This document shows, in pieces, positions 12,256 to 53,830 of a stretch of DNA of 64,000 bases. The stretch is taken from assembly GCF_022539665.2 (NCBI RefSeq), contig NC_081335.1, forward strand, positions 6,014,001 through 6,078,000. Direction: 5' to 3'. The DNA comes from Daphnia carinata (lineage: Eukaryota > Arthropoda > Branchiopoda > Diplostraca > Daphniidae). The number at the start of each line of letters is the position of its first letter. Position 1 is the first letter of the stretch. Under the pieces are notes generated by a model that saw only the letters and a program-made list of their open reading frames with translations, did not search any database and was not told the origin of the DNA. A program made the position numbers and the translations under genes.

Positions 12256-12459
12256 TGTAAAGTTTCCAAACCTCGTGTGTTACCAGTGGATTTGCCAAAA
12301 CAATTCCGCCTTACATGTTACAATCATGCAGTATTTATACTACTAAAGGATACAAATTATGAAGGTAAAATGGGAGGAGATACGTTCACTTTCACTGGTG
12401 AAACGCTTGAGGGATGTATGAGGTGTGGCTTCCTTTGGATCGCCTTTGGTCTCGTTACA
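12256..12459 (-). repeat. 3' LTR of provirus A (204 bp)
   Basis: It runs TGTAACGAG...ACTTTACA and is the same length as the LTRs at 29009-29212 and 49287-49490. It contains a TATAAATA box. A frame across it (12277-12546 on plus) is only the LTR read backwards. Confidence 0.92.
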
Positions 12460-21639: not shown

Positions 21640-24088
21640 TGGTTCAGATTGTTGATACGTGCCATATCTGTCCAACATTCTCGTTCAATGTATCCTCTTT
21701 TATTGCACTTGTAGCAGATAATAATCTTATTTCTTAGGGTGTCAGTGTCTGTGGATATTGATGAGGATAGCTTGGGTTTTGATGTTACACTTGTTGATTG
21801 TTGTGTGTTGAAAGTTTGGTTGATTGTAATGTATCGGACCGTTGTTGGTCGGAGATTTCTGTGTTTGTTGATAGGTTGGGTAATTGGGTTGTCTATACCC
21901 CGGAGAGGTACCTTCTCTACGTTGTGAAGTATAGTTGTTACGGTATGGGCTGTTTTCTCTGCTACGATTGAAGTTTCGGTCTCTACTGGAACCTCGACTA
22001 TTCGGCCTTTCGTGAAATCGAACTCGAGGATTTTGTGGTCTGGAGTATTGATCACTTGATCGGGATGGTCTTGGTTCGTATCGATCTGCTGCTGCTATCG
22101 TAATGTCGGTATCCTGTGATAATTCAGAATTTTTATTAGTTTTCCAGTTCCCGAATTTTTTGTTTTAAGAATTCAATTTCTGTCTTTTGTTGTGAAAGTT
22201 CGTTGTCTTGTTGTTTATCGTGTTGCGTTATCCCTGCAATTACTGCGTTGATTTCTTTGTCTTCTGCAGTCTCCTTGCCATATAAGATGCCTTCAGATAT
22301 GATTAGTTGTTTACATAACTGATCGAAGTCTTCAGGATCTTCGGGCATTCTGAAGTAGAGTTCAGCTCGGATTTTTGGTAAAATGCCTTGCATCAGGATT
22401 TTGATTTTGGCATGATCTCTCATTCTCTTGACTGTACTTATAAGTCGACCTTCGACGATAGGCTGGTTTTGGTCCAATTTTTCTTCTTTGCCTTCAATGG
22501 ACTCGTAGAGGCTGTTGAATTCTTGAGATTAGGGCTTTGCATTTCTCTTCAGGTTTTTGTTTTAACGTGGATAACTTTTTTCTTTGTGCTGCTAAGTCAT
22601 ATGCATCTTGGAACCTTGCAATAATGGCTGTCTTCAACTCGTCGTATCTTAACTCGTCACCCTGTTCTTCTCCTTTAGTACTTTTTCCTTTAAAAATCGG
22701 AATTGGCTTTTTGTCTTCTCTCGAAAATAATTCTCCTAGCGCTTTTACAATGGGTTGAGTTGTGGATTCGTCAGCATCTGTTGTGTCTCGATCAATTCTC
22801 GAAGTTTCTTTGTGTGAAAGTCCCATTTTGATTTTTTGTTTGAGGGTCTGGTACTTTCGTTCTAGTTGAAGGAAGTTATCGTTTTGGATCTCGATTTGGT
22901 TTTTTAGGTCGTGTTTGAGTTGCTGCAGCTCTGTTATTTGTTCTGATTCTAATTCGTAGTGAAGGGATTTGTCTCCTTCTGTTAATGAGGTTAGGTCGTG
23001 TATCTCGCTCACTAGTCTTGTTATCTCTCCCGGTTCGTTGGGGTGTCTAAGTCTTCGGTTTCGGCGAATGTTACCTGTTGCTTCCTATATTCTTTTATTC
23101 TGTTTTCCAGATACTTAATTTTTTCTTCTCGGTCTCCTGCCTAAACGTTGGTTTTTTGTAATTCTGTTTCAAGATTTTTATTCTTTGTAGTACTATCTAT
23201 CAGGCTTCTTCTTAAACCGACTTTTTCTGCTACGGTTTTTTCAAGGATCTCTTTTGTTTCTTTTGTTTCTGTCCGAAGTTGTTTGTTGGTTTCTAAGGCT
23301 GCTTTTATCTGCTGTTCGGCGTCTTCTAACCTCGTAACCAGTTGTTTTCTTTCACCTTCAAGTTTGCTAATTATTTCTTGCCCTTCTCTTTAAACGGCTA
23401 TGTTGTTCTCTTCTCGTTTTCGTAAAATGTTTTGCAATTGGCTTTCTGTTGCTGCGGCAGTTTCAAGGCTTATTTCTAATCCGCTGATTCGATTGGCAGC
23501 TTTTTCAATGGAGTTTTTGAGTGTTTTTCGTTACTTTCTTGGAGTTGTTCAAGGGAACTACTTAAGGTGTATTTGGAATTCTTTACCTTTTTCTTGTTGC
23601 TCTCTAGCTGTTTTCGCAAGCTCTGTAACTCGGAATTGAGATCAGACGAATATTTTTTTCTCTGCAATCTGCGCAGGTACTACTTCTTTTTGCAAAACAA
23701 GAATGGTACCGAACAGGAAGTTTTTCTCTTTACCATGTACAATGCTAATCTGCTGCAATAAACTGTCAAGGTTTTCGGTGTTGCCACCGAGAGATTTTAC
23801 GTTGTCTTTAATTGTCTTTGTGGTGTTTGTAATAGTTTCTGCTGTTATAACACTTCGTACTTGCAACGTTTGTTCTAACAATGAATATGAATATAATTGT
23901 AGTGCGGTCAAGTCCACAAGAGTTTTCCAGTTGTCTAAAACCTTTTCTCGATGACAGTTGGGATTTCGGTTGGTTGTGTCTGATTCGGGAAGTACGGGGT
24001 ACAACGGTGGGGATAGTTCGTCGACAATGTTTGGATACAAGGTATTCTCTTTACGAGTAGTCTCTGGTACAATATGATCAAGCGGCAT
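21640..24088 (-). pseudogene. gag: gag of provirus A (coiled-coil N-terminus, gag domain with deletion)
   Basis: The likely start is the ATG at 24088-24086 (MPLDH), nine bases downstream of a splice-donor-like GTAAGC. Frames 24160-23642, 23667-23476, 23012-22494, 22477-22136 and 22055-21624 run in order. The first half is a long coiled coil (SLEQLQESNEKHSK, ITELQQLKHDLKNQIEIQND). The retrotransposon-gag domain follows but lacks about 135 bp present in B, between FKGKST and EEQGDEL. A CCHC knuckle (CYKCNKRGYIERECW) ends the protein; its histidine is replaced by tyrosine. Several frameshifts and stops are present. Confidence 0.8.
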
Positions 24089-24094
24089 TCGCTT

Positions 24095-24100
24095 ACCTTT
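24095..24100 (-). promoter_or_regulatory. Putative 5' splice donor in the provirus leader
   Basis: The minus strand reads CAAAG|GTAAGC just upstream of the gag ATG; the same donor occurs in fragment D at 28868-28873. In a retrovirus-like scheme it would pair with the acceptor at 39615-39626 to make the env message. Confidence 0.5.
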
Positions 24101-24232
24101 GATGGTGTTCCTTGGTCTGGTAGAGTTGTTGGAGACTCGTCGGGGAAGTGTAGAGCACAATCACTGAAATAAGGTACGGGTAAGAAACCTTGTACTGGAC
24201 AACAAGTGTTAGTCTCGTTGGGACTTTCCAAT

Positions 24233-24393
24233 TGTAAAGTTTCCAAACCTCGTGTATTACCAGGGGATTTGCCAAAACAATTCCGCCTTACATGTTACAA
24301 TCATGCAGTATTTATACTACTAAAGGATAAAAATTCTGAAGCTAAAGTGGGAGGAGATACGTTCACTTTCACTTGTGAAACGCTTGAGGGATG
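24233..24393 (-). repeat. 5' LTR of provirus A, truncated
   Basis: It matches the last 161 of 204 bp of the LTR and ends ACTTTACA at 24233. Its 5' part is replaced by the GAAATAGGAC repeat starting at 24394. Two bases after the LTR a TGGAAAGTCCCAACG stretch is a candidate primer-binding site; the priming tRNA was not identified. Confidence 0.85.
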
Positions 24394-25010
24394 ATTGGCG
24401 GTGAAATAGGACTGAAACGAAATAGGACTGGAGAAATAGGACTGGGAAAAATAGGAATGACTTTTAAAAACTTTTAGGACAGTCCTATTTCTCCTCGGCA
24501 TCAGTCCTATTTCTCCTTAGAAATAGTTCTATTTCATTTACCTTGTTCCAAGGGGAACGATGAGCCTCCAATCCGGTAGGCAATGTATTGCACAAGAGCG
24601 CCGACTTATATCCATTTCTCTTTTTCAAAAACCGATGGCGTTTATTTATATGATTCACAAATGTTTTATCTCTTATCCTATTTTTATTTTAATTGCTGGG
24701 GAACATGAATTATTTTGAATCTAATGGAGTTCATTTAATAAAATATTATTAGAGCAAAATCAGAATATGTAAGAGCTGTATATAACGAAAGATGTATGAA
24801 ATAGTAAAACATTAGTTCAATTGGAAAAGTTGGTTATGGCCACATATTGTGCGATATAAGTAATAAATATTTCTGTAGTATGTCTAATAGTAGTTTGTTA
24901 AATGAACTCTATTAAATACAATATAGTTCATGTTCTCCTGTAATTTAAATTAAAATAGGATAAGAAAAAAAAGTTTTGTGAACCATTTATCTAATGAGTT
25001 AACACCATCG
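24394..25010. mobile_element. GGCGGTGAAATAGGAC-ended repeat inserted in the provirus A LTR
   Basis: It begins ATTGGCGGTGAAATAGGACT, then an array of GAAATAGGAC boxes in both orientations to about 24535, then a block shared with 51220-51475 (GAACGATGAGCC, CCAATCCGGTA). Inside, 24660-24720 and about 24925-24995 are inverted copies (ATCCTATTTT..AACATGAA). It interrupts the LTR of provirus A. Where it stops is uncertain, because the SURF6 pseudogene follows without a visible edge. Confidence 0.6.
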
Positions 25011-27576: not shown

Positions 27577-27920
27577 GATATTAGCAATATATAAATACTA
27601 ACATAATCTGAAATCAGATTGCTACCGAATAAATAATCAAAGATTAACTAGCGTACATACGCTAACATTGTTTGAGCTCGGCAAACCTTATAGAAGGTAA
27701 CGGTTTCAGCAACCTTTGTACATTCCAACTTCCACGGAATAGGAAGTTGGAAATACATTTTGGAAACAAATATTAAGTTTGTAGGAACATGGAAATTGAG
27801 CGGAGAAAAAGGCCCAGTGTTATGGAGAAAAAGGCCCACTTTTAAATTTGGAAAAAAGTGGGCCTTTTTCGTATGGGCCCTCTTTGCGGGCCTTTTTCGT
27901 CTGGGCCTTTTTCTCCGCCA

Positions 27921-28864
27921 ATCTTCGTTTCTTTTGCTTCTGTCTGAAGTTGTTTGTTTGTTTCTAAGGCTGCTTTTATCTGCTGTTCGGCGTCTTCTAA
28001 CCTCGTAACCAGTTGTTTTCTTTCACTTTCAAGTTTGCTAATTATTTCTTGTCGTTCTTTTTCAACAGCTATGTTGTTTTCTTCTTTTTTTCGTAAAAGG
28101 TTTTGCAATTGGTTTTCTGTTGCTGTGGCGGTTTCAAGGCTAGTTTCTAATTCGCTGATTCGATTGGCAGATTTTTCAAGGGAGTTTTTGAGTGCTTCGT
28201 TACTTTCTTGGAGTTGCTCAAGGGAACTACTTAGGGTGTATTTGGAACTTTTTGCCTTTTTCTTGTTGCTATCTAGCTGTTTTCGTAAGCTTTGTAATTC
28301 GTAGTTTAGGTCAAACGAATATTTCTTCTCTGCAATCTGCGCAAGTACTAATTCTTTTTGCAAGACATTGATTGTACCAAACAGGAATTCTTTTTCTTTA
28401 CCATGCACAATGCTAATCTGTTGTAATAAACTGTCAAGGTTTTCAGTGTTCCCAGCGAAGGATTCTACGTGATTTTCAAATGTCTTTGTGGTGTTTGTAA
28501 TACTTTCTGCTGTTATACTACTTGGTACTTGCAACGTTTGTTCTAACAATGAATATGAATACAATTGCAATGCGTTGTGTGTCTCTTTGCTAACTTCTTG
28601 TTTCTTGGATTCTATTTGATATATATTTGCTTTTGTCGTGGTAGTTTGATAAGTTTTGTTTCGTTCTAATTCTTGCTCAAATTCTAAGTCCACAAGAGTT
28701 TTCCAGTGGTCTAAAAATTTTTCTCGAAGACGATTGGGGTTCTGACTGGTTGTGTCTGATGCAGGGAGTACAGGGTACAAAGGTGGGGATAATTCGTCGA
28801 CCACGTTTGGGTACAAAGTATTCTTTTTACGAGTAGTCTCTGGTACGATATAATCAAGCGGCAT
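27921..28864 (-). pseudogene. gag: gag of fragment D, N-terminal coiled-coil half
   Basis: From the ATG at 28864 (MPLDY) the minus-strand frame stays open for about 315 codons up to the repeat junction at 27920. It is a long coiled coil: SLLEQTLQV, NLDSLLQQISIVHGKEKEF, ELQSLRKQLDSNKKK, SLEQLQESNEALKNSLEK, IISKLESERKQLVTRLEDAEQQIKAALE in pieces. It is better preserved than the same region of provirus A, where one internal block is missing. The annotated open frame starts further up inside the LTR (29080), but that ATG lies about ten bases past the TATA box and would not be in the transcript. The gag domain is absent; B begins about 330 bp further on in gag. Confidence 0.75.
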
Positions 28865-28867
28865 TCG

Positions 28868-28873
28868 CTTACC
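28868..28873 (-). promoter_or_regulatory. Putative 5' splice donor in the leader of fragment D
   Basis: CAAAAG|GTAAGC lies just upstream of the gag ATG, the same arrangement as at 24095-24100. Confidence 0.5.
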
Positions 28874-29008
28874 TTTTGATGGTGTTCTTTGGTCTAGTAG
28901 GGCTGTTGGAGACTCGTCGGGGAAATGTAGAGCACAATCACTGAAATAAGGTACGGGCAAGAAAATTTGTACTGGACAACAAGTGTTTGTCTCGTTGGGA
29001 CTTCCAAT

Positions 29009-29212
29009 TGTAAAGTTTCTAATACCTCGTGTATTTTCAGTGAGTTGCCAAAACAACTCCGAATTACATGTTACAATCATGCAGTGTTTATACTACTAAA
29101 GGATACAAATTATGAAGGTGAAGTGGGAGGAGATACGTTCACTTTCACTTGTGAAACGCTTGAGGGATGTATGAGGTGTGGCTTTTTTTGGATAGCCTTT
29201 GGGCTCGTTACA
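29009..29212 (-). repeat. 5' LTR of fragment D (204 bp)
   Basis: It runs TGTAACGAGCCC...ACTTTACA with a TATAAACA box. The four bases upstream of it are ACGC, the same four bases that follow the 3' LTR of provirus B. A TGGAAGTCCCAACGAG stretch two bases after the LTR is a candidate primer-binding site. Confidence 0.9.
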
Positions 29213-36783: not shown

Positions 36784-37495
36784 CTCCGCAGCAACTCAAC
36801 AACGACCTAAAAAACCAAATCGAGATCCAAAACGATAACTTCCTTGGACTAGAACAAAAATATCAGACTCTCAAACAAAAAATTGAAATGGGACCTTCAC
36901 ACAAAGAAACTTCGAGAATTGATCGAGACACAACAGATGCTGACGAATCCACAACTCAACCCATTGTAAAAGCGCTAGGAGAATTATTTTTGAGAGAAGA
37001 CAAAAAGTTAATTCCGATTCTTAAAGGAAAAAGCACTGATAAGCTTATAACAGAATGGCTGAAGGACGCAGAACATGTAGCACGTAACAACCACTGGGAC
37101 GACAACCAAAAAATACGATTCTTCTCCGACAGATTAAAAGGTGATGCCTTAGAATGGCATGGAAACTACGTTGAAGAGCAAGGTGACGAGTTAAGTTATG
37201 ACGAATGGAAAACCGCCATCATTGCAAGGTTCCAGGATGCATACAAGTTAGCAGCACGAAGAAAACAGTTATCCACACTAAAACAAAACCTGAAGAGAAA
37301 TGCAAAGCCTTTATCTCAAGAATCAACAGTCTCTACGAGTCCCTTGAAGGCAAAGAAGAAAAATCAGACCAAAACCAGACCATCGTCGAAGGTCGACTCA
37401 TAAGTACAGTCAAGAGAATGAGAGATCATACCAAAATCAAAATTCTGTTTGTAACAAACACGATGCCCTATTCGCAGAAAAAGAATCAGATCTGG
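36784..37495 (+). pseudogene. gag: gag of provirus B, gag-domain part
   Basis: The frame covers a coiled coil (NNDLKNQIEIQND, LKQKIEMG) and a full retrotransposon-gag domain: ITEWLKDAEHVARNNHW, FFSDRLKGDALEWHG, WKTAIIARFQDAY. This domain builds the particle shell. The N-terminal start is missing, a frameshift lies near 37300, and the zinc knuckle and protease are deleted (the sequence passes from the gag end into the RT start near 37460). Provirus A keeps the knuckle and protease but lacks the middle of this domain. Confidence 0.8.
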
Positions 37496-39600
37496 GCCTA
37501 GCAACTGATGTAAAGCATCCCATTAACATAGGATACAACGCCCCCATTACTCAAAGATTGCGCAGAACTCCAGAAGCATTAAAACTTATTGTAAAAACAA
37601 AAATTGAAGTAATGTTGAGTAACAAAATTATTAGAGAGTCACAGCCCATTTGCAGCAGCCATAGTAATGGTACCCAAAAAAGATGGAGAAATGCGTATAT
37701 GTATTGATTATAGGGCACTGAACAAAATAACCGTAAAAGACAAATATCCCTTACCAAGAATTGACGACACCATTGATGCATTGAACGGATCAGTTTTTTT
37801 ACGACATTTGACTTACTGAGCGGCTACTGGCAAATCGAGATAGAAGAAGGCGACAAACACAAAACCGCTTTCATCTGTGAATTTGGACAATACGAATTTA
37901 ATTGAATGCTATTTGGGTTAACAAATGCACCAAGCACTTTTCAACGAGCAATGAATAACATCTTAAAATCAGTATTGTTCAAATTTGCATTGGTTTATCT
38001 GGATGACATCATAGTGTTCAGTAATAATATTGCTGAACATGTGACACATCTGGAAACAGTGTTTAAGCTTCTTAAAGACGCAGGGCTTAAGTTAAAAAGA
38101 AAGAAATGTGAATTTTTTAAAGAAGAGTTAGATTATTTAGGATACATTGTTTCGAAAAAAGGAATAACACCATGTACGAAAAAGCTAGAAGCAATCATCA
38201 AATACCCAGCTCCCAAAAACGTGAAGGAATTGAGCTCTTTTTTAGGTCTGGCTAGCTATTATAGAAAATTCATCCGGGCTTTTGCTGATAAAGCCCACCA
38301 ATTGACAGCGCTAACGAGAAAATCAGCCGAGTGGAAATGGGGAGAAGAACAAAAGGACGCTTTTGACTGTATCAAGAACTTTCTCATTACTAGACCGATC
38401 CTAGGGTATCCAGATTTTTCGCGCGACTTTATCATCCACACGGATGCGTCAGGATACGGAATAGGAGCAGTCTTGGCTCAGATACAGACTCTACCTCAAT
38501 CAGCGGATTCGGCGGAGTCCGACGTACAGGAACCCCGTGAATCAGACGGCGCGGAAGTCGTCATAGCGTATAGCTCTAAACATCTGAACGACCGCGAGGC
38601 CAAGTGGTCAACCACAGAGAAAGAGGCTTACGCAATCATCCATGCGATAAAAGTATTTAGAACATATTTATTCGGACGCAGATTTACCGTATTTACAGAC
38701 CATAGACCTTTGGGATGGCTAATGAGCAAGACAGAACCCACAGGAAGATTAGCTAGATGGGCACTAAAACTCCAATAATTTGACATCGCCATTGGGTACC
38801 GGCCAGGAAAGTCACACCAAAATGCTGACACCCTAAGTCGTATTCCCATAGTGCCACTAGCAAGAATAGAAACAAGGGCAACGGAAAAAGAAATTGTCAT
38901 AAAAGAGCTCGAAAGAAATCGAAAAGAAAGTGAAAGATTAAAAAACAAACTACAAATTGAAAGATTAAGGAAACAAGAACAATTTGAGAGAGAAAATGAA
39001 AGTAGTCAGACAGGAAGCGAAAGTTTCGACACCAATGTAATGTACTCACATCAATGGAAGAAGGCTCAGCAACTAGCGAAGGAACACATATTTCGGGCGC
39101 AGACAAAATAAAAAAGATATTACGACAAAGGAACAAAAGCAATCAAATACAACATTGGTGACTTTGTGCTACTGAAAGCCCCACTAACTGCCGGAAAATT
39201 CATCAAGAGATGGAACGGACCATTCAAAATCACCAGAAGTTTCTCAGATCTCACCTACGAGATTCAAAACACAGACAATGAAAAACTAAAATCGATAGTA
39301 CACGTCAACCGCCTAAAACTGTACGTCCCAGGAAACCAAAGAGCAGAAGGAACATCACGTGCGACACACCAACCGAGAAATAAAACAGTACGACGAAGAA
39401 CAGGAAGGCCTAGAAAACACTTCAGTAACAACGAAAGAAGGCCTCCTCGTGAAACACGTATATTTAGAGCAGCAGAAGAGGAGTCTCGTATTATCATCGC
39501 ACCAAATATTCCCGGTCCTATACCAAATCATCCTGCGCGCACTAGAATGACGAGTCCACGATACAACTTACGGCAACGTAATGAAGTATCAAGATTCTAA
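37496..39600 (+). pseudogene. pol: pol of provirus B: RT and RNase H, integrase core deleted
   Basis: RT begins near 37520 (HPINIGYNAPITQRLRR) with the fingers in frameshifted form. The palm has FGLTNAPSTFQRAMN and YLDDIIVFS (37906-38020), then FLGLASYYRKF. RNase H follows with TDASGYGIGAVLAQ, STTEKEAYAIIHAI and FTDHRPLGWLMS to a stop at 38777. After a Lys/Glu-rich linker the frame passes from GSESFD directly to TNVMYSHQWKKAQQ, so the integrase zinc finger and DDE core (about 950 bp in A) are missing. The C-terminal module (KYNIGDFVLLKAP, WNGPFKI, HVNRLKLYVPG) and an AT-hook-like RTGRPRK remain, ending at TAA 39598. Stops at 37900 and 39109 are also present. Confidence 0.85.
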
Positions 39601-39626: not shown

Positions 39627-41214
39627 ATGGAACTGATACTATTATTCATCCACTTACTTACCATTATTCCATCAACGTATCCCATCTATTCAACTGTATG
39701 CGACTGTAACAACGTAAAGACCAGAGGAGTTTTAGATAAAGAAGCACCATATTACTGCAGCAACAAGGAAACAGATACAGCACACTTACCCAGAATACCC
39801 ACGCTGTACACTTTAAAAACGACGCAGAAACCAGCAGCTTCTTGGAAAGGCTGGACATGCAAACAGTGGATAAAAACGAAGAAAATAACAGGATCATTTT
39901 GGATTGGATCTTTTGACTCAATATATTCACAAGAAACTAAACTAATAACCCCACTGGAATGCTGGAAAATGGTGAACGACAAGAAGTGTGGCGATAACAA
40001 CATGCAGACCGGACCAGCAGGACTGAGTTTTATAGCCACTCCAACAGGCGAAGGGCAATGGTATGCCATTAAACAATACCACACCCTCAACTGTGTAGCA
40101 GAACAAATCACCATACGACAAGAAAAGCCAGAAGACCCCATTGAAAGCCCTTTTGGACCATTAAACACCACCCAGCAGGAAGGACACTTCATTCAAAATC
40201 AAAACACTACAGTGTGGGGAGATAGGACAACAAATAACTCATATCACAAATCACAAACATTGATTAAAGGAAGCGGATATCTGGAACTTCCAAGAATGCC
40301 GGAACACGAAAACACCAGCCGTCTCTATGACACAAATCGACAAATCGAGATATCATTCCTCAACAAACCAGATCGGGACATCACACCACAGGGCTACATA
40401 GTTGTCGGTATACCGCTAACATACCTCATTTTCCCGACGGAAACGACAAGGAAACTATATGAGATGTTTAAAACGACTATAAATACATGCATGCAGAATA
40501 CTCACCTGGATACATCAGTATGCAAGGATTATAAAGAACTCCAATTTGCCAGACGGGGACGATCCATCCAGCAGGAAGTTACATTCTTGCTAAACACTGC
40601 TATTGAAGATTCAGAAATAGGAAAACGCCTTTACAGCATTTCTTACGCCTGGGGATCAATAAGAATGGGATATCAACAAGCAAAAACCAAAGAAAAGGAA
40701 AGATTCATCATACATAACGCCACGATACACATAATCTACACACCTGGAGATACCAACCAATTAACTGCTACTTCCATCTCAACAACGCAGATCCACTTCC
40801 ACAAAAAACGGATTTCGAACATCGTTAATCAAACAATACGATTACAAAACAGCGATACCTGTGTCACGGAAGGAGAAGCAGACCAACTGATTGTAGCCAA
40901 ATGTTCGGAATATTCAACACGATGGATCCTCGATCAACAAAATTGTCAATTAATCTCACAAGAATCACATCTCCCACATAGCACATCTCAGCCGTCGGAT
41001 GTCCGATCCATGGCCGAATGTCCGTGTCTTCTATGGGCTGGCCCACGGATGTCCTTCGGCTAGTCTGGTTGGATGTCCGATGGATGTGCAAAAATGATGT
41101 CCTAACAACATCCCTCGAGCAGACAAGAAGATCTTCAACAAATTTTTTTGAATATATTGAAAATAAAAATATTTTTAATAAATTTTTACTAAGTAGTTGC
41201 ATTTAACTCTAGAA

Positions 41215-41620
41215 CCGTACATACCTTTTTTTGTTGTAGTGTGTAGGGAACACACAACTCTGAATGAAAGTGACGGCACACAAACAGAATTATTTAAAAG
41301 ATCCAATCTATTTTCGTCAACTTGTAATAAAAAAAAAGGTGAGGCAGTACGAGGAGGACATAGCCAACTGTCGTTTGCTCATTATGGACGGAAACATCGA
41401 ATTAACGACCATGGAGTACATCCTTGACCTCTGCCGCTCTACCAGAGTTCCAGGTAAGACCCCAAACAAGTTTCTGGTAAAACTACTTTACATTAAAAAA
41501 AAAGAGAAACATTACAGCTCACTCAACGATTTAAATTTAAGCAATGGACGGAGGTGACATTGTGGAACGGAATGATGGATAAAGAGATTCACAGCTGCAA
41601 CTGTTTGTAGCCCAAATATT
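41215..41620 (+). pseudogene. Exon-like frames of an unidentified gene
   Basis: After an acceptor (TTGTTGTAG) an open frame includes YFRQLVIKKKVRQYEEDIANC and GNIELTTMEYILDLCRST up to a donor-like CCAG|GTAAGA near 41452; a next exon may start after ATTACAG (41518) with TQRFKFKQWTEVTLWNGMM. The style is coding, but I do not recognise the family. Confidence 0.3.
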
Positions 41621-41640
41621 TGAGGATGAGGCACACATTT

Positions 41641-42471
41641 TCAGATGTAAATCTGGCTGCCGTGTGATTGCATCTGAACAACTAGATTGCTGTTGGCTTT
41701 CTTGCGTTCCACTGTCCTCTTGGCGTCATTTTTAGAATAGTTTGCTTGGTTTAGAATTATTTCATGGTGAATTGCATGATGAGAACTTACGAAGTAGAAA
41801 CTGGCTGTGGCAGCCATTCCGATGAACATGGCGATTACGGCAAACACGTACGACCAAGAGAGGTAGTTGAAATTTGGGTAGGGCATCCAGTCACGTCTCC
41901 AACATTGTCCACCAAAGACAGCCACCGACAGGAAGAGGCAAAAGGATTTCAAACCATTCATTAGTGCACAGGCAGACAGGATCTGCACTGGTATCGGAAT
42001 GTGAAGTTGAGCGGCCAACGAACAAGAAGCATTGTTAAGGCAATGTGGGCAGAGCAGGAAAATATCAAGGCCAGCGTCATAAAAACCTGCACTGCCATCA
42101 GCCAACCTTTGGAGAGCAAATGAAAGAGTTGTGAAGTAGCCGGCAAAGGAAAGTGTGACTCTAAATTTACCTGGCAGCAACCATTCCCAAATCACAAAGT
42201 ATGTCTTGCTGAAGACATAGTGGCAACCATCAACGAGGTCATCAAATTGGTAGTTTGGGTAACGGAATCTGCTAAAACAAAACTCCCAGAGACCCATGTT
42301 CTTGAACGGGCTGTATGTGTCTTGCCAAGAGACCAGCCAATGTGGACTGTAAACAAAGGGTAAATTGGCATATGAATGTTTGACAGAGAATTGGTTGGGA
42401 TTACCTGGCAAATGACATAACCAACAGCATAAGTGATATAAAAGACAGAATGGATCCCAACATCAGTAAAC
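41641..42471 (-). pseudogene. Claudin-like four-helix membrane protein (pasiflora-like), frameshifted
   Basis: Minus-strand exons 42471-42415, 42346-42171, 42106-41791 and 41718-41641 have consensus GT-AG borders (introns 68, 64 and 72 bp). They encode helix 1 (LLMLGSILSFISLMLLVMSFA), an extracellular loop with WLVSWQDTY, a GLWEFCF signature and DGCHYVF, helix 2 (VQVFMTLALIFSCSAHIAL), helix 3 around CALMNGLKSFCLFLSVAVF, helix 4 (SYVFAVIAMFIGMA) and a basic tail ending HGSQIYI. The W...GLW..C loop is the claudin-superfamily mark of arthropod septate-junction proteins such as pasiflora. One frameshift near 41990 breaks it and the first exon is missing. Introns are kept, so this is a genomic copy carried in a transposable element. 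Confidence 0.65.
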
Positions 42472-42779
42472 CTGTTAACGAAATAATTTCATTCACGTCA
42501 TGTTGACAGTTACAGGCGCAAATCCACTTGTCGTATTTGTGAAAAACACATATAATACATGGTATTTAGAAAAATAATGGCCGCCTTTTTCCCCTATATA
42601 TTAAATCAGCATTGTCAGATAACTTAAATGGCAGTGATATGTTCCAGCAGTTTATTAAATTTAAATTTACTTGAAATTACTATTTAATATGTAACGTAAA
42701 AACATCTACTTAAATTTCAACAGTGTTTTTTTATAAGATAACTGTTTTATTAATAATAATTATTTGATGAGCAATTTTT

Positions 42780-43100
42780 TGAGAAGATACCATTTACCTG
42801 TGTTTAGGGAATGAACACCAAAAGCAAAAAAAATGGTAGTTCCGACTTCTTTCGCATGGGGATCTAGCGATTCAGGCATTCGCTCGGTAGCTGCCTTTGA
42901 GTCATGTGCTTTGTATGGTGTTGTGTGAATTTTTTGAAAATTAGCAGAACTTGGATTTTAAAGTGTGCATGAAAGACTTGTGAAACGTGTTCGTCGCGCT
43001 GCCCAGCTGCCTTGCCGTACCCGCCCAGCTACCCAGCTGCCTTGCCGTACCCGCCCAGTCACAACGTTTGGTAATTTTTTTTTAATTATTAAAATTTGAA
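42780..43100 (+). repeat. Internal block shared with 1566-1700 and a CCGCCCAGCTACCCAGCTGC repeat
   Basis: The TGTTTAGGGA..GGTAGTT..CGACTT..TTCGCATG block is common to both copies of this element family and may be its promoter region. A short direct duplication (TGCCTTGCCGTACCCGCCCAG, twice) lies at about 43007-43060. Confidence 0.5.
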
Positions 43101-43153
43101 TTAAATTAAACTTCAGGTGTTGTCTGTTTGTTTGTTTTTTAAATGTTTTCTAG

Positions 43154-43486
43154 AAAACCCACCTGATCGCAATAGGGGGAAACACCCCAAGAACAATTGT
43201 TAGATCGATCGCCCGGCGGCTTATGACCAACGAACTAGGCAAATCTTTCAGCTGGTTTGGACATCGTAATAACAAAAAGCTAGCCGATACCAACATCGGA
43301 AAAGTGATAATTGGTATTTATTTTAAATATTCATGTTATCCGTTTCATTCGTTTATAATACGTATTGATCTTTCAGCTGCATCGGTACGTAACACGCCAT
43401 TGATTACAGAGGCAGATGTTAAATCAGCCATGATTGACATGCTGCGACACTGTAAAGACAAACCTCGCACGGTACCTGTCCTATGA
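43154..43486 (+). pseudogene. DUF4806-type fragment in the transposable element
   Basis: Two exons (43154-43310 and 43378-43486) flank a 67-bp intron (donor ATTG|GTATTT, acceptor CTTTCAG). They encode the DUF4806 core: HLIAIGGNTPRTIVRSI, RRLMTNELGKSFSWFG, then SAMIDMLRHCKDKPR and a TGA at 43484. The GG turn, the LMTNEL motif and the aromatic-Trp segment match the domain at 5876-6379. No N-terminal part is visible. It may be a passenger gene of the CCCACATAGCACA element. Confidence 0.55.
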
Positions 43487-46400
43487 GTCCCATCATCATT
43501 CCATTCATCATCCATTCACAAAGAAAAAAATTGTATTTTTTTTATGTTTCTCGTCTATATTCTCAGTCAGTCACAGTCACACAGATACAGTCAGCCCGAA
43601 TAATGTTGAAGCAATGTTTTGTTTTTGTTTTTGTAGTCAGACAAATGATTTCTTTATGAATCTGTTTTCCTTTTTTTGTTTTTGATCTGCATATGGTTGT
43701 GCAACACAAGGTTTCTCATGTTCATTAATCTGGTCATGTTTCAATACAAAGATCAAAAAATAACAACAGTCTTTTCTATTTCACGATTTTATTTTATTAA
43801 TCAATAAAACGAATGAATATGCAGATATCCCTTACATGTCCAAATTATAGCCGTAAGAAGTCCGGTCAGATATCCTTCGGATGTCTGACGGCGCTGTTTA
43901 GGGCGGTCAAAACCAACAAAAAAAACATCCGTCGGACATCCAAATCGGATTTCGGGCTGTCCGACGGATGTCAACAGGATGTACCTTATATCCGACCTCG
44001 ACATCTAGCGGACATCCCACGGCCAGACTTGTGCTATGTGGGCTATGTATTACAATAGGACCAATCCAAGATATCATACTGGAAGAATGTAGAGACAACA
44101 GCGTACAACAACAATGGATCTTTGAAACTGTAAAGACCAACCCTGAGATCCTCGAAAATTTTCCGGATACAACATTAGCGGAAATGCTGGAAATCCAGCA
44201 AGAACAACGAAAGGCAATAACAACCACGATTAATTCACCACTATTCGGAGGAATAAAAAACTAATTACGGTAGCGGAAATATAATCTGGGACATGATTGC
44301 TTGGGGATTGTTGAAAAATGGGAAAGCACCGAGAGAAAAATGTCTAACTCATCATGGAATAAACAAGCAAATGACGCTGGAAGAATGCGACACCGAATGG
44401 ACAAAATGCCAAGAAGAATTAAGAACACTGGTGAGCAGTAATGACCCATTAGTGCGATCACAAACTACAGTTGCCAACTGCAGCAAAACAACAGAACGAG
44501 GACAAGCTTTCGAATATACATCTGATTTCACCATCAGAGCATTCAACACGAATATCTGTGTTAAAGCCAATACAGCAATGCTGATTCTTCAAGAATGCGC
44601 GAACACCAGCTGAATCTGGGGCACATTCGAACACACAGGCCAGCTCATGGCAAGAGATAGAACCGGATTACATTCACCTTCATCAGACAGGAAGTGGCTA
44701 ACACAGAGAGTAGGACGTGTGAGTCTGGGGCATTGTCACAGCTCCAGTAAAAAGCAACACTTTAGCTTTGAATATCGCAATCCACATCAAATAAGGCAGC
44801 CATTATAGCGCTACACACTCAACAATCATTGGACGGGAAAACACTCCCATCTATACTGTCACTAATGCAAAGGGAGATCAGTAACCAATCAGAGAAGAAC
44901 AACACTTTAGCCACTCCCCCTGCCACGCCCACAACAGAAAAATCCACAACAGCGAAAAGCGTTACGACGACTACAAAGCCCACAATAAAAACAACCTTGA
45001 GAACAACGACAAAAACAACGGTAAAAACCACGACAACAAATAATCCAGCTACAAGCACAGCAGCCAACAAACCGACAATAACACATAAAATAACAACGAA
45101 ACCCAGTATAACAATAACATCAACAAAACCATCCATAACTACAAAACCAATAATCACGTCAACAAGCACTAAACCTACCACTACTACTAGGCCTATGACA
45201 ACTATTAAAATAACTTCAACTTCAACTTCAACAACCACTACAACCACAAAGCCTACGTCAACAACAACAACGGCTACTACGACAAGCTCCACAATAACAG
45301 CAACAACAACAACGCACCAACCAAGCACAACTACGCAAAGTACGACGACAGTAAAAGAGAGTCCAATGACCCCACAATCGTCAACACAGACAGCCAGAAT
45401 GACCCCATTAACTACAACAGAAACAACGTCTACCACAGAAGAAAATCAAATTCGGGCCATCGAGAACAACTTTCCAAATTTACCACCCGCAGAGTCCCTG
45501 TTAATGGATCAAAAAACTAAAGAGTCATTAATTAATGATCATGTGGAAAGCGGTCTACCTAAACACATCGAAGAATTCAACGACAAGATTAAATACGAAA
45601 TAAGCAAAATGCACGACCAATATAAAATCAGCGTTGAAACAGAACACGAGAACAAACTCGCAAAAGAAATTTGAGATGTTTATTGTCAACTATCGACAAT
45701 AAAAAAAACACAGGCCGTTATCTTAGCTCAAACCAACGGAATTTTGGCCGCAGCAGTAATAGGTTTACCTATCTCTACGAGACTACAAGGCTTTGGTCAA
45801 GCAATGACACTTCAACAATGCGAAGCCAAAAGAATTTTTATATCAGCAAATGAAACAAAATGTGGATTTCAATCGTTCTTTACTTACGAAGGAAAGAACT
45901 GTACGATCGGAACAGATGGATGGTCAATTCACCCATTTTCCGATTTTTTTGGAAAACACCGTTAGTGAATTTGAATGGAAATCCACACACCTGGGAACGC
46001 AACTCTACAACAGGAGATTGGATACGCCAGAAACCTAGCATTCACATGCCTAATCTAGACCTCATTACAGAATTTGAAGAACTCCACCTTAATGATTTCG
46101 ACTTCTCGCTGAAAAGTCACCCAGCACACGAGACAATGGAGATGGAACAATTAAATATCCTAAATGACCTAGTAGGCAGAATGCAAGAAGGAAATTCCAA
46201 GTCTGTTGGAGATATTGTGATGTCAGAGCAACAAGATAATCAAATAGGCCACATGTTATCATGGTTAGACAAATTGAAAATAATAGGTCTATCAGCGATT
46301 GGACTTGTGCTTTTCCTCGTATGCTTACGGATATTCATCATTTGCAACCCCATCTCGAAGATTAAAGAACATATACACAGAAAACGGAAGTTTACAAGCA

Positions 46401-46732
46401 GATACGATGATGGCATAGAGGAAGAACACGAACTCGCATCAATGATACCAGGACGAGAAACAAATTACCATTCAGACATAGCAATCGAACAACCGTTCAT
46501 AAGAGCGGCCGCCCCAGCACAACTGACAACAGAAAGACAAGGTCAAATGCGCTCTCCACGGCCAAGCGCACCAAATTCATTAATATACCCATTTGTCGAA
46601 GAAACTGACACACCCAAACGATGTACGGGAAAACATACCACGTGCACTTACGTCGTTGGGTATGGGATGGTCTGGGAAGACCTATGTCGTTGCATGTCAG
46701 AAACAGATAGCGGTAATTCAGCCAAAAAGTGA

Positions 46733-47775
46733 AAATCCCCAAAGTCACTGAAATTAAAAGTAGCCACAAAACGTAGCCCTTGACAACTTAGTTAATTACA
46801 TAATAAATTAACAGCCCCCAATAAATAACGCACTTACCAGAATTTAAAAGCTCCAACAATTAAGTTGATTATCATTTTTTTAAATCCTTACCATTATCCA
46901 ATACTCTGAAACTTTATAGTAAAAACAAACAAACAAACCAACTCAAAATAACAATTACTGTATTTCCAACTAACACCTTATCTCCAAAATCAAAAATTGA
47001 ACAGGCAAACTAACAAACTCGAATAACAACGTCAAAATCCCAATTAACAGCCTAACTACAAAATCAATAACAAAACCAAATAATAATACAAAAGAAGAAT
47101 TAAAAAAAAAATTTTATATAAAGCAAAACAACACTTACGAATAATAGTAATAGTTGTGCGCCGGACGTTTGGACCCGAAATCCAGTGTCACCAAACCCGA
47201 CACTTTAAATGCCAGTCGAAACAAACCGAAGAAGAGGCTCCGATCCTCTTCGCGGAATTTCCAGAAAAGACTCGTAGAAAAAATCGCGTCATCAAGCCCA
47301 CGCAAGGCCATATCAATCTGTGGTCGATAATGAAACACGTACACGTTGAGAAACACCCCACTGGAAAACGAAGGAACAAACATAACGACGGCACAAGCAG
47401 TGTAATCTTCAAAGTAACGAAGAAAACTAACTCACAAAGAAGAATGAGAACACAAGGACCCCTATAAGAAAATGACAAAGACTAAAAAAGGAATAAAGAA
47501 AGTTTGAAACGAACAGGATCGCCCTGCGGCAAATCCGCATGTCAACGCGACACAAGAAGCAGACAACATATTAAATGCACGAAAACCTGTAATTAAATTA
47601 AGAAAAATAGAAACAAGAACTTAAGGGAAAAGAAAAAGCAATGCGACAAACTTTGAAAGATTTGCAAAAATGCGAAACTCTTCCCAGTGTTTCAACGGCA
47701 TAAATCCAACAAAGTTTCACAATTCGTGTGCAGTGTGTGCAGAGTGTGCATCACATACTATTAATTCATCTCAAA
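46733..47775 (+). other. Spacer between env and the ankyrin ORF of provirus B
   Basis: The first part is AT-rich and is shared with provirus A (13790-14215). The part from about 47090 is absent in A. It has a CTATAAG box at about 47462 and, close to the ORF, a GTGTGCAGTGTGTGCAG stretch (about 47730) that could hold an initiator. Frames at 47135-47478 are not convincing. Confidence 0.4.
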
Positions 47776-49177
47776 ATGGCAAATAATTTCATCACCAAAG
47801 TTTACGACTGTAAAGGTACCATCATCCCCAGGAAGATGGAAAAGGTATACGAATTAATCACCATCAACGACACCGAAAGTGAGAATAGTCAACAGGACTG
47901 CAGAGCAAAAGAAAGTGCGAAAAGTGCGGATGAAAACAAGCAATTAGTGCAATACATGGGATGGAATGGAATAGAAACAGAAAAGAACGACTTTTTCGCA
48001 AATAAAGAGAAAGCGAATGACAGCAGTGAATCAAGTGAGGATGAAAACGAGGGTTTAACGGCGTATAGTGGAATAGCACCCGATTGCGAAAGTGTCTACA
48101 GTGTTGATTTTATATTAGGAAATGACAGTAACACTTATCTTCAGTGTGAACCTTCCCAAAAACGGAGTAAGCCGGACGACCAACAAAGGGAAACAGAGGC
48201 AGTAAAAAATTGTCGGATGAAAACGATAGCATCGCTATCAGCAGCCCGAGCAGAAAAATTCCAACTACGAAGACAAGCCATGATAGACTTAGAAAACGGA
48301 AAACTTTCATTGACGATGATGGGAGCTCCAATGCAGGTAATAAGAAGGTGCATCCAAAATAAATTCAAAAGGCAACAAGGTTGGCCGAGACAGAAGATGG
48401 CCACATTCCTCAATGAAAGATTCGAAGAGACAGACGCTACTCCACACCAGCATACGAAGATGTAGGTACGACATTACCGATCTTTTACTGTCCTTCGGAG
48501 CGGACCCAGAGATACTCTATCACGGCAAAACAATTGGCCATATCGCAGCGGCCGAAAATGATCTACTGTTACTGAGGATCCTAAAGTATAAGAACTGCGA
48601 ATTTACAGCTCGCAACTACAACGGAGAAACTCCCTTAATGTTGGCAATCTCACACGAAAACCAAGAATGTGCAAATTTAATATGGACACCAACTAACATC
48701 AACATTGCAACACCTGACGGCAGAACCGTTTTGCATTATTTAGCCATGTATGGCCTAGAGGACCTGGCCACCCAAATTTGCGCAAAGAGAATCATCAATA
48801 TGAACCAACAAGACGACTCAGGCAAAACCGCATTACACGAAGCAGCCGGATTCAACCGAATCGACATGATCGAGCTTTTACTGCTACACGGAGCAGAAGC
48901 AAGGATAAAAGACTCCCATGGACGCGCGGCTGGATCAGAAACATGCAGCACAAGAGCGCAAACCATACTCCAAAAATGGGAACTAAAACATAACAGTAAT
49001 TCCCTGGGTAAAACTAGAAGAAAAGAACACCAACAATACAGCCGCGAGGAAAATGATCAAGCCGTAATCAACATAGCCGAAATACCAGGCAGAAAGAAAA
49101 GCAAAAATAAAAGAAGAAAAGAAAGAAAACAATATACCAACAACCTTATTAAAATCACATACAACTTTTTTTCTTAA
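47776..49177 (+). pseudogene. Ankyrin-repeat (IkappaB/vankyrin-like) accessory ORF of provirus B, one frameshift
   Basis: The start ATG at 47776 has a strong context (TCAAAATGG). The first frame (to 48465) gives an acidic Ser-rich region with LTAYSGIAPDCESVYSVDF, reminiscent of the phosphodegron region of IkappaB, then a basic helix region (RRQAMIDLENGKLSL, VIRRCIQNKFKRQQG). One frameshift near 48425 leads to the second frame (to 49177) with five ankyrin repeats: QTLLHTSIRRCRYD, GHIAAAENDLLLLRIL, GETPLMLAISHEN, GRTVLHYLAMYGLED and GKTALHEAAGFNRIDM, then a Lys/Arg-rich tail (GRKKSKNKRRKERKQ), a likely nuclear signal. About 450 residues in total. Provirus A has a homologue in the same place, so the gene belongs to the family. 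Function is inferred, not shown. Confidence 0.85.
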
Positions 49178-49274
49178 ATTTTAGGTGAAGGAACAAGTTT
49201 TATTTTTCAACCATAGCAACAACTGTAGTCGGTGACGGAAAATGCAAATTGGAGGACCAATTCTTCTTACCGTA

Positions 49275-49286
49275 GAGGGGAAGGAA
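49275..49286 (+). promoter_or_regulatory. Polypurine tract of provirus B
   Basis: GAGGGGAAGGAA directly precedes the LTR TG, as in provirus A. Confidence 0.85.
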
Positions 49287-49490
49287 TGTAACGAGCCCAA
49301 AGGCTATCCAAAGGAAGCCACACCTCATACATCCCTCAAGCGTTTCACAAGTGAAAGTGAACGTATCTCCTCCTACTTCACCTTCATAATTTGTATCCTT
49401 TAGTAGTATAAATACTGCATGATTGTAACATGTAATTCGGAGTTGTTTCGGCAGCTCACTGAAAATACACGAGGTATTAGAAACTTTACA
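49287..49490 (+). repeat. 3' LTR of provirus B (204 bp)
   Basis: It runs TGTAACGAGCCC...ACTTTACA with TATAAATA at 49407-49414. It is followed by ACGC, matching the flank of the D 5' LTR. Confidence 0.93.
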
Positions 49491-50795
49491 ACGCAATCAA
49501 CGTACCGAATTGTAAGTTCCTTTAACAGTTCGTCTTCCAAAACAGCCTTTAGGTCAGCGGCTTGCACGTCGCATTCTTTAGTAGTCCTTTGTATGCACTT
49601 AGTCATCTTTACTAAGATGTTCATTTCTTCATAATTGTCAACGTTTGCAACCTTCACTACCGACGATAATCGGGCTCCGAGTGATACATAACGGATAATG
49701 TGTTGAAACGAAGTAACTGTAGGACGTGAGTCCACGGATCGAACTATACCAAATAATCTCTAAAAAGCGATGAAGGAAATTATCATCATAACATAGTCAA
49801 GACATAACATTTATGGCAATTACCTCCACAGGATCCTGGTTTAGTTTACCAGTTAGGACTACACTATAATTAGCGTTAAACAATTTTTCGGTGAGTGCAA
49901 TGACACTCTGAATTGTAATCCTCCATCCGCGAAGTGTTGTATAGGAACAAAACATTTCTTTACTTTTATCCTTTTAATATACCCTTTCGGTGTGGGCTAG
50001 AACTGCTAGCATATTGTCAAGAATGTTTTTCTTCTCAGCCCAATTTGCTATTGTAATGCTCTCTTTGCAAAAGCGTCCATTCAGGACATCGAAGATGTCA
50101 TTCAGCAGTTTCGTTAACCTTTCGATGGTATTTGAATCTGAAAAAATAGGTTCAAAATTGACGAAATACATTGCTATGATTGATTCCTTTTATCTCTAGT
50201 TGAAAGGATCGGTTACCTGCAAACAGTGCCGTAATTTTCTCCTCGGGTGATTCGGCAGTCAGATTGTGATACAAATAAAATCCTAGTGCATTGGTGTTTG
50301 AAAACAATCGCGCTGCCAATCGAACATTCATTTTTTGAAAATTATTTGGATGTAGCATGTCATTTGTCAGCTATTAACAAACCATAAGTTGTTTTCCTCT
50401 CTGAACGCAGAGCAAATCTTCATAAGACTTATAGTTCACTTCTAATTCTTGAAACTGGAATCAAATAAAACGTTAATACATTCTCGACAGGTATAACGTT
50501 GAGTAAGAAATTTTCAATTACCTGAACAATTCTATGCTTCTCCATATGACTGCGTGTACATTTAAGAAGGTGTGGCACATCGGTTAACTAGTGAATTAAG
50601 ATTTTGTCGTCCATTGGATGACTTATGGCATTATTACCGCCTTTGTCACCAGAAATACCAAAATTACCCATAACTGATTTGTTGGTGAAACACCGTCACA
50701 AACAGTAGCTATGGCAATTGCACCGGCACGGTCATCAATTCAAGAAATCCTTTCGTTATCAGCTCAATCAGAATCATTGCTGGAGCAGCGCCCTT
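49491..50795 (-). pseudogene. P-element-type transposase, 5' and middle part
   Basis: Reading minus from about 50795 the frames show the P/THAP9 transposase order: a TVCDGVSPTN-like GTP/catalytic region with HPMDDKI and TDVPHLLKCTR (50720-50530), LHPNNFQKMNVRLAARLFS and NALGFYLYHN (50358-50152), TKLLNDIFDVLNGRF and KNILDNMLAVL (50171-49974), and ILVKMTKCIQRTT with LLKELTIRYVDCV up to the LTR edge (49735-49491). Introns of 60-100 bp separate them. The frame continues, in phase, at 29213. The upstream end is cut by the CCCCACACG element at 50801. P elements move by a cut-and-paste mechanism; this copy is dead. Confidence 0.75.
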
Positions 50796-51901: not shown

Positions 51902-52180
51902 CCACGTGTGTTCAATGTGAATATATGCTACAACGTGGTTTATGAAGCAAATCTAAACAGTATCAAATATACGTGTATTCTGTGTGAATATAGTGTGATA
52001 CAATGAGTTGCGTGAACTACATTGAAACAGGATCAAATATACGTGTGTTCAAGGTGAATATAGTATGATACGATCAGTTTTATGAACTACATTCAAACAG
52101 TATCAAATATACGTGTATTCAATTGGAGTATAGTGTGATACAATGAGTTTCATGAACTACATTCAAACAGAATCAAATAT
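51902..52180 (+). repeat. Four tandem units of about 66 bp
   Basis: Each unit contains CGTGT(G/A)TTC, GTGAATATA, GATACAATGAGTT and AAACAGTATCAAATATA in order; unit starts are at about 51902, 51971, 52040 and 52110. Non-coding. Confidence 0.8.
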
Positions 52181-52689
52181 AAAGTACCCACCAGAAGAAT
52201 TGGATCACCTCGGTCCAATTTTCCTGTTTTAACACGCGTAGGATAGTCCCAACGGTGTCTCATGCAGGAATTTTTTTTTCGTATAGAAATATTTGCACGT
52301 AAAATTATCGGGTTTGTTGCATTAGAAAGATAAAGGAATGTTCTTTATCTTTCTAATTTTTTATTTAAAATCCGTTCAGAATTCTATGAAATAAAAAGTA
52401 GAAAAATATTTGATCACCCCTACACAGCCACATAGATTGCCCCTACCCGCGGCTTAGCCTTAAGATATGGGAGGTGGCAAAGGTGGGAGAAATCTATGCT
52501 ATATAAAAAAACAAGGAAATCGGGAGAGGAGCCTGTCATGCTGTGCATTTGTTGTGATTGGCTGGAAACCACCGCCGGCTGCGGGATGTTGTGATTGTCT
52601 GGCGCCAAAACCGGCGTCTGCTACAGCGAATTGGTGAGATGGGGATTTGGAAAACTAAAATGTGGGTTGAAATGCGGTTTTAGGCAATT

Positions 52690-53830
52690 TTTCAGTCTAC
52701 GGGCTTGGCTTAAAACGGGTTGGCGCTACAGTAGGTTAGCCGACGGGCAGGGATAGGGGGTGCGTTAAATAGGAAATAAAGAGGGGCATGACGGACAAAA
52801 GTTGTGGGATGGAAGATGGGCAGAGGCAAAGAGTGGGTGGATGGGCCACTAAAGCGGGCATTTCGACGGGCTGGGAATGGGAGGGAAGGGCAGGCCAATG
52901 CAACGAAAAGTTGATGGGCCATACAGCATGTGTGTTGGCGAACCGACAGAGAGTGGGCGGACGGGCCGAGAGTGGGCCGACGGGCAAAGAGTGGGCCGAC
53001 GGGCCGAGATTGGGTTCGACGGGCAGAGAGTGGGCCGACGGGCAGAGAGTAGGCCGACGGGCCGAGAGTGGGACGATGGGCAGAGAGGGAGCCGACGGGC
53101 AGTTAGGGGGCCGACGGACAGAGAGGGGCCGGTGGGCAGAGAGAGGGTCGACGGGCAGCAACGGCGAGTTCCTTGGTGAGCAAAGTGGGTTGACGGGCAG
53201 AGGCAAAAAGAGGGTTGACGGGCAATTATAGCGGGCGTTTGACGGGCGGCGACTGGACAAGAGGACGAGCAAATGAAAAAAAATGAGATAGGCCTCTAAA
53301 GCAGGCGTTTTTGCGGGCAGATAGTGGGTTGACGGGCAGAGAATGGGTTGACGGGCAGAGAGTGGATTAACGGGCAGAGAGTGGGTTGACGGGCAGCGGG
53401 TAGCCAACGGGCAGCGAGCTGGCCGACGGACAGAGAGGGGGTCGACGGGCAGCGAGTAGCCAACGGGCAGCGAGTGGGTCAACGGGCAGAAAGGGGGCCG
53501 ACAGGCAGTGCAGGGGCCGACGTGCAGAGAGGGGGTCAACGGGCTATAACAGCGGGTTTTTTAGCGGGCAGAGGCAAAACGTGAGTGGACGGACAACTTT
53601 AGCGGGCGTTTTGACGGGCGGAGACTGTGACGAAAGGGTGGGGAAATGCAAAAAAAAAGTATGTCCCCCCAGCAGGAATTTTTGCGGGCGGAATGTCCGT
53701 AGACGGGCTAAGTGTGGGTTGACGGGCAGAGAGGGGGTCGACGGGCGACTGGCAGGAACAGTGTGTGGGTCGGAGAGCAAGAAAAAGGAACTTTTGATTA
53801 AAAATAATTAAAAGTAGACGGGCGATAAAA
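52690..53830. repeat. GC-rich minisatellite built on GACGGGCAGAGAGTGGG
   Basis: About 50 irregular units of 12-25 bp (GACGGGCAGAGAG, CCGACGGGCCGAGAGTGGG) fill the region. Long open frames on both strands (for example the Leu/Ser/Pro-rich 267-codon frame 53539-52736) come from the absence of stops in the units and are not genes. Confidence 0.85.

Follow-up and report, generated by a model that had tools for sequence, protein, structure and literature searches.

An ankyrin-repeat accessory gene of env-bearing Ty3/gypsy elements in Daphnia carinata

Ankyrin genes at the locus

A 64,000 nt stretch of the Daphnia carinata genome was analyzed (NC_081335.1, positions 6,014,001-6,078,000; hereafter the window). 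It holds two copies of an env-bearing Ty3/gypsy element, copy A on the plus strand and copy B on the minus strand, each with an ankyrin-repeat gene. The results support that such elements carry the ankyrin gene as an accessory gene, across three families. It is a separate open reading frame (ORF) inside a long terminal repeat (LTR) element, conserved across copies and under selection.

The ankyrin gene of copy A lies in two frames on the plus strand. Its first part (47776-48465, 229 codons from the ATG) encodes an acidic, Ser-rich N-terminus and a CxNC-type linker, and ends early because of a frame shift. The second part (48413-49177, 254 codons), in a different frame, encodes the ankyrin repeats and a basic tail. 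The two parts match residues 1-224 and 195-456 of the intact copy L017, with 81% and 79% identity, respectively. In Pfam, the only clear matches of the two halves were to ankyrin repeats (Ank_2, E = 1e-22; Ank, E = 5.4e-21).

Immediately downstream follow the polypurine tract (49274-49286) and, adjoining it, the 3' LTR (49287-49491, starting with TGTAACGAGCCC), an arrangement seen alike in other copies. Upstream of the gene, at 47678-47696, is a predicted splice acceptor with the conserved block CTCTTCCCAG/TGTTTCAAC, as revealed by an alignment of 10 copies. Further upstream lie several pieces of env (39627-46732), with other DNA intervening at ~41.1-43.9 kb, and remnants of gag and pol (36788-39600; RVT_1 and RT_RNaseH matches).

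In copy B, the ankyrin gene is broken into three frames (12593-13727, minus strand). The element is bounded by a 3' LTR at 12256-12459 and a 5' LTR at 24232-24436. Behind the latter are a primer-binding site (PBS) at 24213-24228, with two mismatches to the PBS of the families (which fits the 3' end of tRNA-Thr), and a predicted leader splice donor, AG/GTAAGCGAATG, at 24086-24098, all on the minus strand.

An earlier note on this DNA, which had described the gene as an ankyrin gene of an env-bearing gypsy element, was partly confirmed. The ankyrin repeats it had proposed are borne out by the Pfam matches, the YSGI..ES motif of the acidic Ser-rich N-terminus reads AYSGIAPDCES in copy A, and the C-terminal tail, described as nuclear-signal-like, is basic. 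The gene of copy A lies between env and the 3' LTR, as stated, and the second homologous copy is present at 13727-12593. Five repeats, the number given, were seen in the structure model of an intact relative. A single ORF of about 450 residues was found in neither copy. Enclosure by LTRs holds for copy B, with LTR matches at both ends, but not for copy A: the window yielded only a 3' LTR for this copy, whose gag similarity to copy B starts at ~36788. In kind the observation was correct; where it erred was the intactness of the gene and the presence of both LTRs in copy A.

At a distance of ~3.2 Mb, the same contig carries a second A and B pair (C5:9258409-9294514) with near-identical spacing, and the ankyrin part of A is 97% identical there. 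The locus was probably duplicated as one block, and the copy counts given below therefore include block duplicates.

Gene families, env linkage and selection

A search of the 108 Mb D. carinata genome with the ankyrin half of copy A gave 151 matches. Twenty ankyrin loci were fetched, selected for open frames. All had an open frame of 405-511 codons except L028 (351 codons); the frame of L027 begins in other sequence. The fetched loci form three families: family 1 with 451-499 codons and three subfamilies, family 2 with 413 codons (405 in one copy), and family 3 with up to 511 codons. Identity to the first sequence, a member of family 1, was 60% for family 2 and 28-29% for family 3 (alignment of 13 loci). 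The linker and the ankyrin repeats were conserved between families, at 28-37% identity.

Open frames of at least 400 codons, without stops, were found in 35 of 76 ankyrin matches. The ORF is not confined to two recent copies; the earlier note had asked that further intact copies be collected. Its claim that the gene was already in the ancestor of the family was upheld by the 151 genome matches, the three families and the open frames of the fetched loci.

Linkage to env was determined for 120 merged ankyrin loci, combined from 122 of the 151 matches and 76 from a second search, against 89 of 94 env matches. An env start lay 2.3-6.5 kb upstream on the same strand for 57 of the 120 loci, mostly at ~5 kb, and within 15 kb upstream for 66. 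The corresponding controls within 15 kb were three loci with env downstream on the same strand and one with env on the opposite strand. Seen from env, 65 of the 89 loci had an ankyrin locus within 15 kb downstream. Truncated copies and the limited size of the match sets may account for part of the remaining 54 ankyrin loci. Many long genome matches to the env of copy A had 79-84% identity, and a second group had 52-58%. Judged from these sequences, env divergence seems to follow the ankyrin family pattern at a slower pace.

Ratios of nonsynonymous to synonymous substitution (dN/dS) were calculated by the Nei-Gojobori method. Between-subfamily comparisons with unsaturated dS (0.53-0.84) were used; saturated family 3 comparisons and the nearly saturated comparison of family 1 with family 2 were left out. 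The between-subfamily values were 0.149 (95% bootstrap 0.099-0.217), 0.154, 0.195 (0.138-0.267), 0.239 (0.177-0.329) and 0.251, with upper bootstrap limits below 0.35. The dN/dS test that the earlier note had called for thus revealed purifying selection between subfamilies, at 0.15-0.25. These low ratios, together with the 35 open frames among 76 matches, indicate that the gene is maintained by selection, which acts most simply on the element. A chance ORF was ruled out by the env linkage and dN/dS.

Element anatomy and predicted splicing

The order of the element is LTR, primer site, predicted leader splice donor, gag, pol, env, ankyrin gene, polypurine tract and LTR. Seven LTR pairs were examined, six from family 3 and one from family 2. 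They had TG..CA ends and enclosed the ankyrin gene, with the PBS and the polypurine tract in place. The LTRs measured 201 bp in family 2 and 365 bp in family 3. Mismatches within pairs numbered only 0 to 10 (K 0 to 0.028), and the insertions are therefore recent. Target duplications of 4-5 nt were visible in five pairs (CATG, ACAC, ACGC, GTTC and the 5-nt ATAAC); of the other two pairs, one had no visible duplication and one had a 3' LTR missing its end. About 2 nt separate the PBS from the 5' LTR. The genome holds 114 occurrences of the PBS complement; three of them were scanned, and each lay at a tRNA-Thr(AGT) gene, against tRNA-Gln as the primer.

Several family 2 and family 3 elements end directly in a 70-bp tandem satellite (L012:2151-3387, L026:2088-3654, L013, L016, L023 and L036; window 51904-52181). 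In different copies the 3' junction repeatedly falls at position ~25 or ~45 of the satellite unit, a hint that the target may not be random.

The pol gene, as read in one family 3 copy (L045), is of the Ty3 type, in the order protease, reverse transcriptase, RNase H and integrase. Its Pfam matches were a protease, RVT_1 (E = 2.2e-41), RT_RNaseH, Integrase_H2C2, rve and Integrase_p58_C. The gag of the same copy matched Ty3_capsid and had a zinc-knuckle match just below the cut-off.

One uninterrupted frame of 1372 codons encodes env in a family 2 copy, and in the family 3 copy read env was split over two frames. Candidates for an env signal peptide and a transmembrane segment were judged by eye. 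The C-terminus of the copy A env gave a weak Baculo_F match below the cut-off (E = 0.0034). The intact env had no Pfam match to Baculo_F; a ricin-type lectin domain was found there. An env protein of 1,363 residues (L044:55-4143, plus strand) carries this beta-trefoil domain (PF00652, E = 3.9e-15). Lectin-bearing env also occurs in L043 and in the window at 44293-44613, where it has a Thr-rich stretch. The domain is possibly a captured receptor-binding module; no report of a ricin-type lectin domain in env was present among the literature matches listed. Inside the interrupted env of copy A, a minus-strand ORF (41641-42411) showed a weak claudin-like match below the cut-off (PF13903, E = 1.2e-4); it is apparently part of an inserted stretch.

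A block CTCTYCYCAG precedes the ankyrin AUG in all 10 aligned copies of families 1 and 2. The alignment comprised nine of the 14 fetched loci of these families and window copy A, some being near-copies of each other. The leader around the block was otherwise less conserved. In the nine loci, the distance from the acceptor block to the AUG was 67-102 nt, with no intervening AUG. The block CTCTTCCCAG/TGTTTCAAC had a single match in the window, with a chance expectation of 0.03. In family 3 the predicted acceptor reads CTAACACTAACTTCAG (two copies examined), 72 nt before the AUG in L025.

Each of the six 5' leaders examined, five from family 3 and one from family 2, contains the predicted donor AGGTAAGCGAATG, located 113 or 126 nt downstream of the PBS start. 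The ATG of this donor opens the first post-leader ORF in a family 3 copy. In the window, the same donor occurs in copy B and in one further element. Retroviruses have the same layout, a donor in the leader and an acceptor further downstream, and from the sequence it predicts a spliced ankyrin mRNA.

Protein features, relatives and possible function

In an AlphaFold2 model (five sequences), residues 1-169 are disordered; a helical cap follows, and then five ankyrin repeats at ~239-389, whose predicted local distance difference test score is mostly near or above 90. A relative from the D. pulex side gave a similar picture, with an additional low-confidence C-terminal part. In four D. carinata proteins, the N-terminus before the linker was 128-215 residues long, with a net charge of -17 to -39; it was disordered in the one modelled. 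Of 24 proteins, 20 had a basic pattern resembling a nuclear localization signal (NLS). Among the six longest members of the P0122 group, four have the C-terminal ending [PA]L[DN]LSxK, which resembles the CtBP-binding motif of cellular repressors and adenovirus E1A. A SUMO-interaction-like stretch near the N-terminus is only a lead.

Relatives in public data (P0006 and P0121-P0125) share a near-identical linker, C-x-N-C-x-x-K-T, and the ankyrin domain. P0124 is a D. pulex gene model, and others come from metagenomes. More divergent relatives (P0142-P0145) were without the CxNC motif. In a tree of 20 proteins, the D. carinata sequences stood apart from the rest (96/93, with a long-branch warning from the tool). 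Four queries found no relatives among IMG/VR viral contigs. Phage records yielded only generic ankyrin proteins of Wolbachia phage WO (four records), and matches in PHROGs were only to families without known function. A host source gene for the ankyrin gene was not found.

The anatomical part of our preferred explanation, a dedicated accessory gene of an env-bearing Ty3/gypsy lineage of Daphnia, is close to certain; the mechanism is much less so. A nuclear regulator was judged the most likely product because of the predicted splicing of a 3' gene, the acidic disordered N-terminus, the ankyrin stack, the basic clusters, and the corepressor-like motif in some relatives. The whole statement, gene and nuclear function together, is put forward tentatively, at somewhat less than an even chance. 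Gene order, selection and relatives are observed, and the splicing, nuclear entry and target are inferred as follows. The ankyrin protein would be made from a spliced mRNA, with the leader joined to the acceptor just before the ankyrin AUG, and would enter the nucleus through its basic clusters. There, the five ankyrin repeats would bind a host regulatory protein, and the acidic Ser-rich N-terminus would recruit or block transcription or silencing factors; in some D. pulex-side relatives the C-terminal CtBP-like motif might do the same. As a result, the element would be better expressed or less silenced.

Several observations weigh against this explanation. Within subfamilies, dN/dS ranged from 0.15 to 0.57 on few changes, so recent copies are not clearly constrained. 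The NLS-like patterns are simple and sometimes inside the folded part, and their position differs between families. The CtBP-like motif was missing from all 14 D. carinata ORFs scanned, from two of the six P0122-group proteins, and from P0142, P0143 and P0145, and P0006 has a PLDLS near its N-terminus instead. The SUMO-interaction-like stretch was similarly patchy (11 of 24 proteins). Given this patchiness of all three motifs, no single recruiting motif is universal. Finally, the linkage to env and LTRs was established for D. carinata copies.

The earlier note had interpreted the gene as a captured IkappaB- or vankyrin-like inhibitor. The part of this interpretation that stood is a selected accessory gene of env-bearing Ty3/gypsy elements, across families; the IkappaB or vankyrin identity found no support. 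In the host genome, Rel homology domain (RHD) loci lie on C1 and C4. The one on C4 has a Relish-like ankyrin locus beside it, and there is also a Cactus-like locus. Twenty host ankyrin regions, chosen from 82 matches of a human IkappaB-alpha probe, were compared with the element repeat profile, as the earlier note had suggested for Cactus. No affinity was seen: the Cactus-like locus ranked 19th of 20 (15.3 bits) and the Relish-like locus 14th (33.7 bits), whereas other host ankyrin loci reached up to 115 bits. Scores of host loci are lowered because introns split the genes. The IkappaB-alpha probe itself gave 46.0 bits for the Cactus-like and 39.6 bits for the Relish-like locus, and it is not specific for split host genes, since other host ankyrin loci reached 94 bits. 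Twenty-eight other genome matches of this probe came ahead of the first element copy. The motif DSGxxS, the N-terminal IkappaB degron, occurred in none of 24 proteins, an absence that alone does not separate vankyrins, because they lack the degron too.

In the structure comparison, IkappaB, Bcl-3, Notch, gankyrin and FEM1 were tied or nearly tied, and for the D. pulex-side model Notch ranked first. Bcl-3 and Notch are nuclear co-regulators that act via their ankyrin repeats. The likeness of the element protein to them is one of fold only, and it is tied or nearly tied with many ankyrin proteins. No vankyrin was named among the 50 viral structure matches listed, several of which were nameless. 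On these sequence comparisons, an IkappaB identity is graded as not supported, short of excluded. An IkappaB mimic, whose ankyrin domain would hold Rel/NF-kappaB proteins and damp immunity like polydnavirus vankyrins, is unlikely as a function, and an immune role of some kind is possible. Polydnavirus vankyrins are described as IkappaB homologues without terminal regulatory domains or degradation signals (PMC3757122). The Daphnia protein is likewise an element-borne ankyrin protein without IkappaB degradation signals, but it shows no IkappaB affinity and keeps a long acidic N-terminus, a distinction drawn from that description.

We also consider it unlikely that the protein is an RNA export factor, a Rev-like protein letting unspliced genomic RNA leave the nucleus, like CERV of the Caenorhabditis elegans element Cer1. 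Ankyrin repeats are protein-binding modules, and neither the two halves of copy A nor four full-length proteins gave a Pfam match to an RNA-binding domain. The predicted leader donor and downstream acceptor do fit export, as unspliced RNA must be exported, and so do the Ser/acidic-rich N-terminus and the basic patterns. CERV is reported to be a nuclear product of a spliced Cer1 mRNA and to need phosphorylation (PMC10309623). It would share with the Daphnia gene product the character of an accessory nuclear protein of an LTR element; it is called a novel protein there, and the two are likened by description.

A ubiquitin-ligase adaptor that delivers host restriction proteins to degradation is less probable still. 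Poxvirus ankyrin proteins act as such adaptors, an ankyrin domain with a flexible region suits the role, and FEM1 substrate receptors were among the tied structural matches. Against it, the Pfam matches of the four full-length proteins (E up to 0.1) included no F-box, PRANC, SOCS or BTB domain. That the gene is a passenger, a piece of a host gene that was captured and does nothing for the element, is highly improbable. Many copies are broken, both window copies included; the passenger explanation is nevertheless already contradicted by dN/dS, well below 1 between subfamilies, and by the env linkage, and the linker, ankyrins and acceptor are conserved.

The nuclear regulator, our preferred explanation, invites a broader one that we regard as possible but doubtful. 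Daphnia would harbor an old lineage of 'complex' Ty3/gypsy retroviruses, with a lectin-bearing envelope, a leader donor and a dedicated 3' regulatory gene. The gene would encode an ankyrin adaptor that acts in the nucleus and, in some species, has a tail recruiting CtBP. It would be a counterpart, in the gypsy group, of the regulatory genes of complex vertebrate retroviruses, independently acquired and kept across Daphnia species. Env-bearing gypsy-type elements are usually viewed as simple, with a gag-pol-env organization. A fourth gene that is under selection, widely shared and provided with its own predicted splice site suggests that invertebrates, too, have evolved retrovirus-like complexity. 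Daphnia is culturable and amenable to RNA interference, so any action of the gene against host silencing or immunity is testable.

Additional ORFs downstream of pol or env have been described for LTR elements (PMC6431247, PMC5408684). The giant, Gypsy-like Burro LTR elements of planarians show env homology and contain ankyrin repeats; as described there, the ankyrins are one of many domains in a 4,873-residue ORF1 polyprotein (PMC6431247). The Daphnia gene, in contrast, follows env as a gene in its own right, and an AUG and a predicted splice acceptor belong to it. Bdelloid rotifer ORF3s are likewise extra genes downstream of pol, typically expressed from spliced messages, but they are env-like, GDSL esterase, DEDDy exonuclease, coiled-coil or transmembrane ORFs, and the word ankyrin is absent from that text (PMC5408684). 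A term search of Rho et al. 2010 (PMC2996953) found no mention of ankyrin. In the literature searched (titles and abstract openings, with subscription papers mostly outside), none of the matches listed reported an arthropod gypsy element in which an ankyrin gene forms a separate accessory gene. For the D. carinata annotation, our results suggest that some models named 'ankyrin repeat domain-containing protein 1-like' and 'tankyrase-2-like' belong to mobile elements.

The window has further features. A 412-codon ORF on the minus strand (27842-29080) starts in an LTR region and continues as a gag-like protein with a coiled coil; it is part of a third element, apparently truncated, whose LTR lies at 29008-29212. 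A perfect inverted repeat with 438 bp arms (9282-9719 and 11362-11799) and a 1.6 kb spacer is perhaps a recent foldback or DNA transposon. At 52736-53539, a GC-rich minisatellite of 19-bp units has long ORFs on both strands and is probably not coding.
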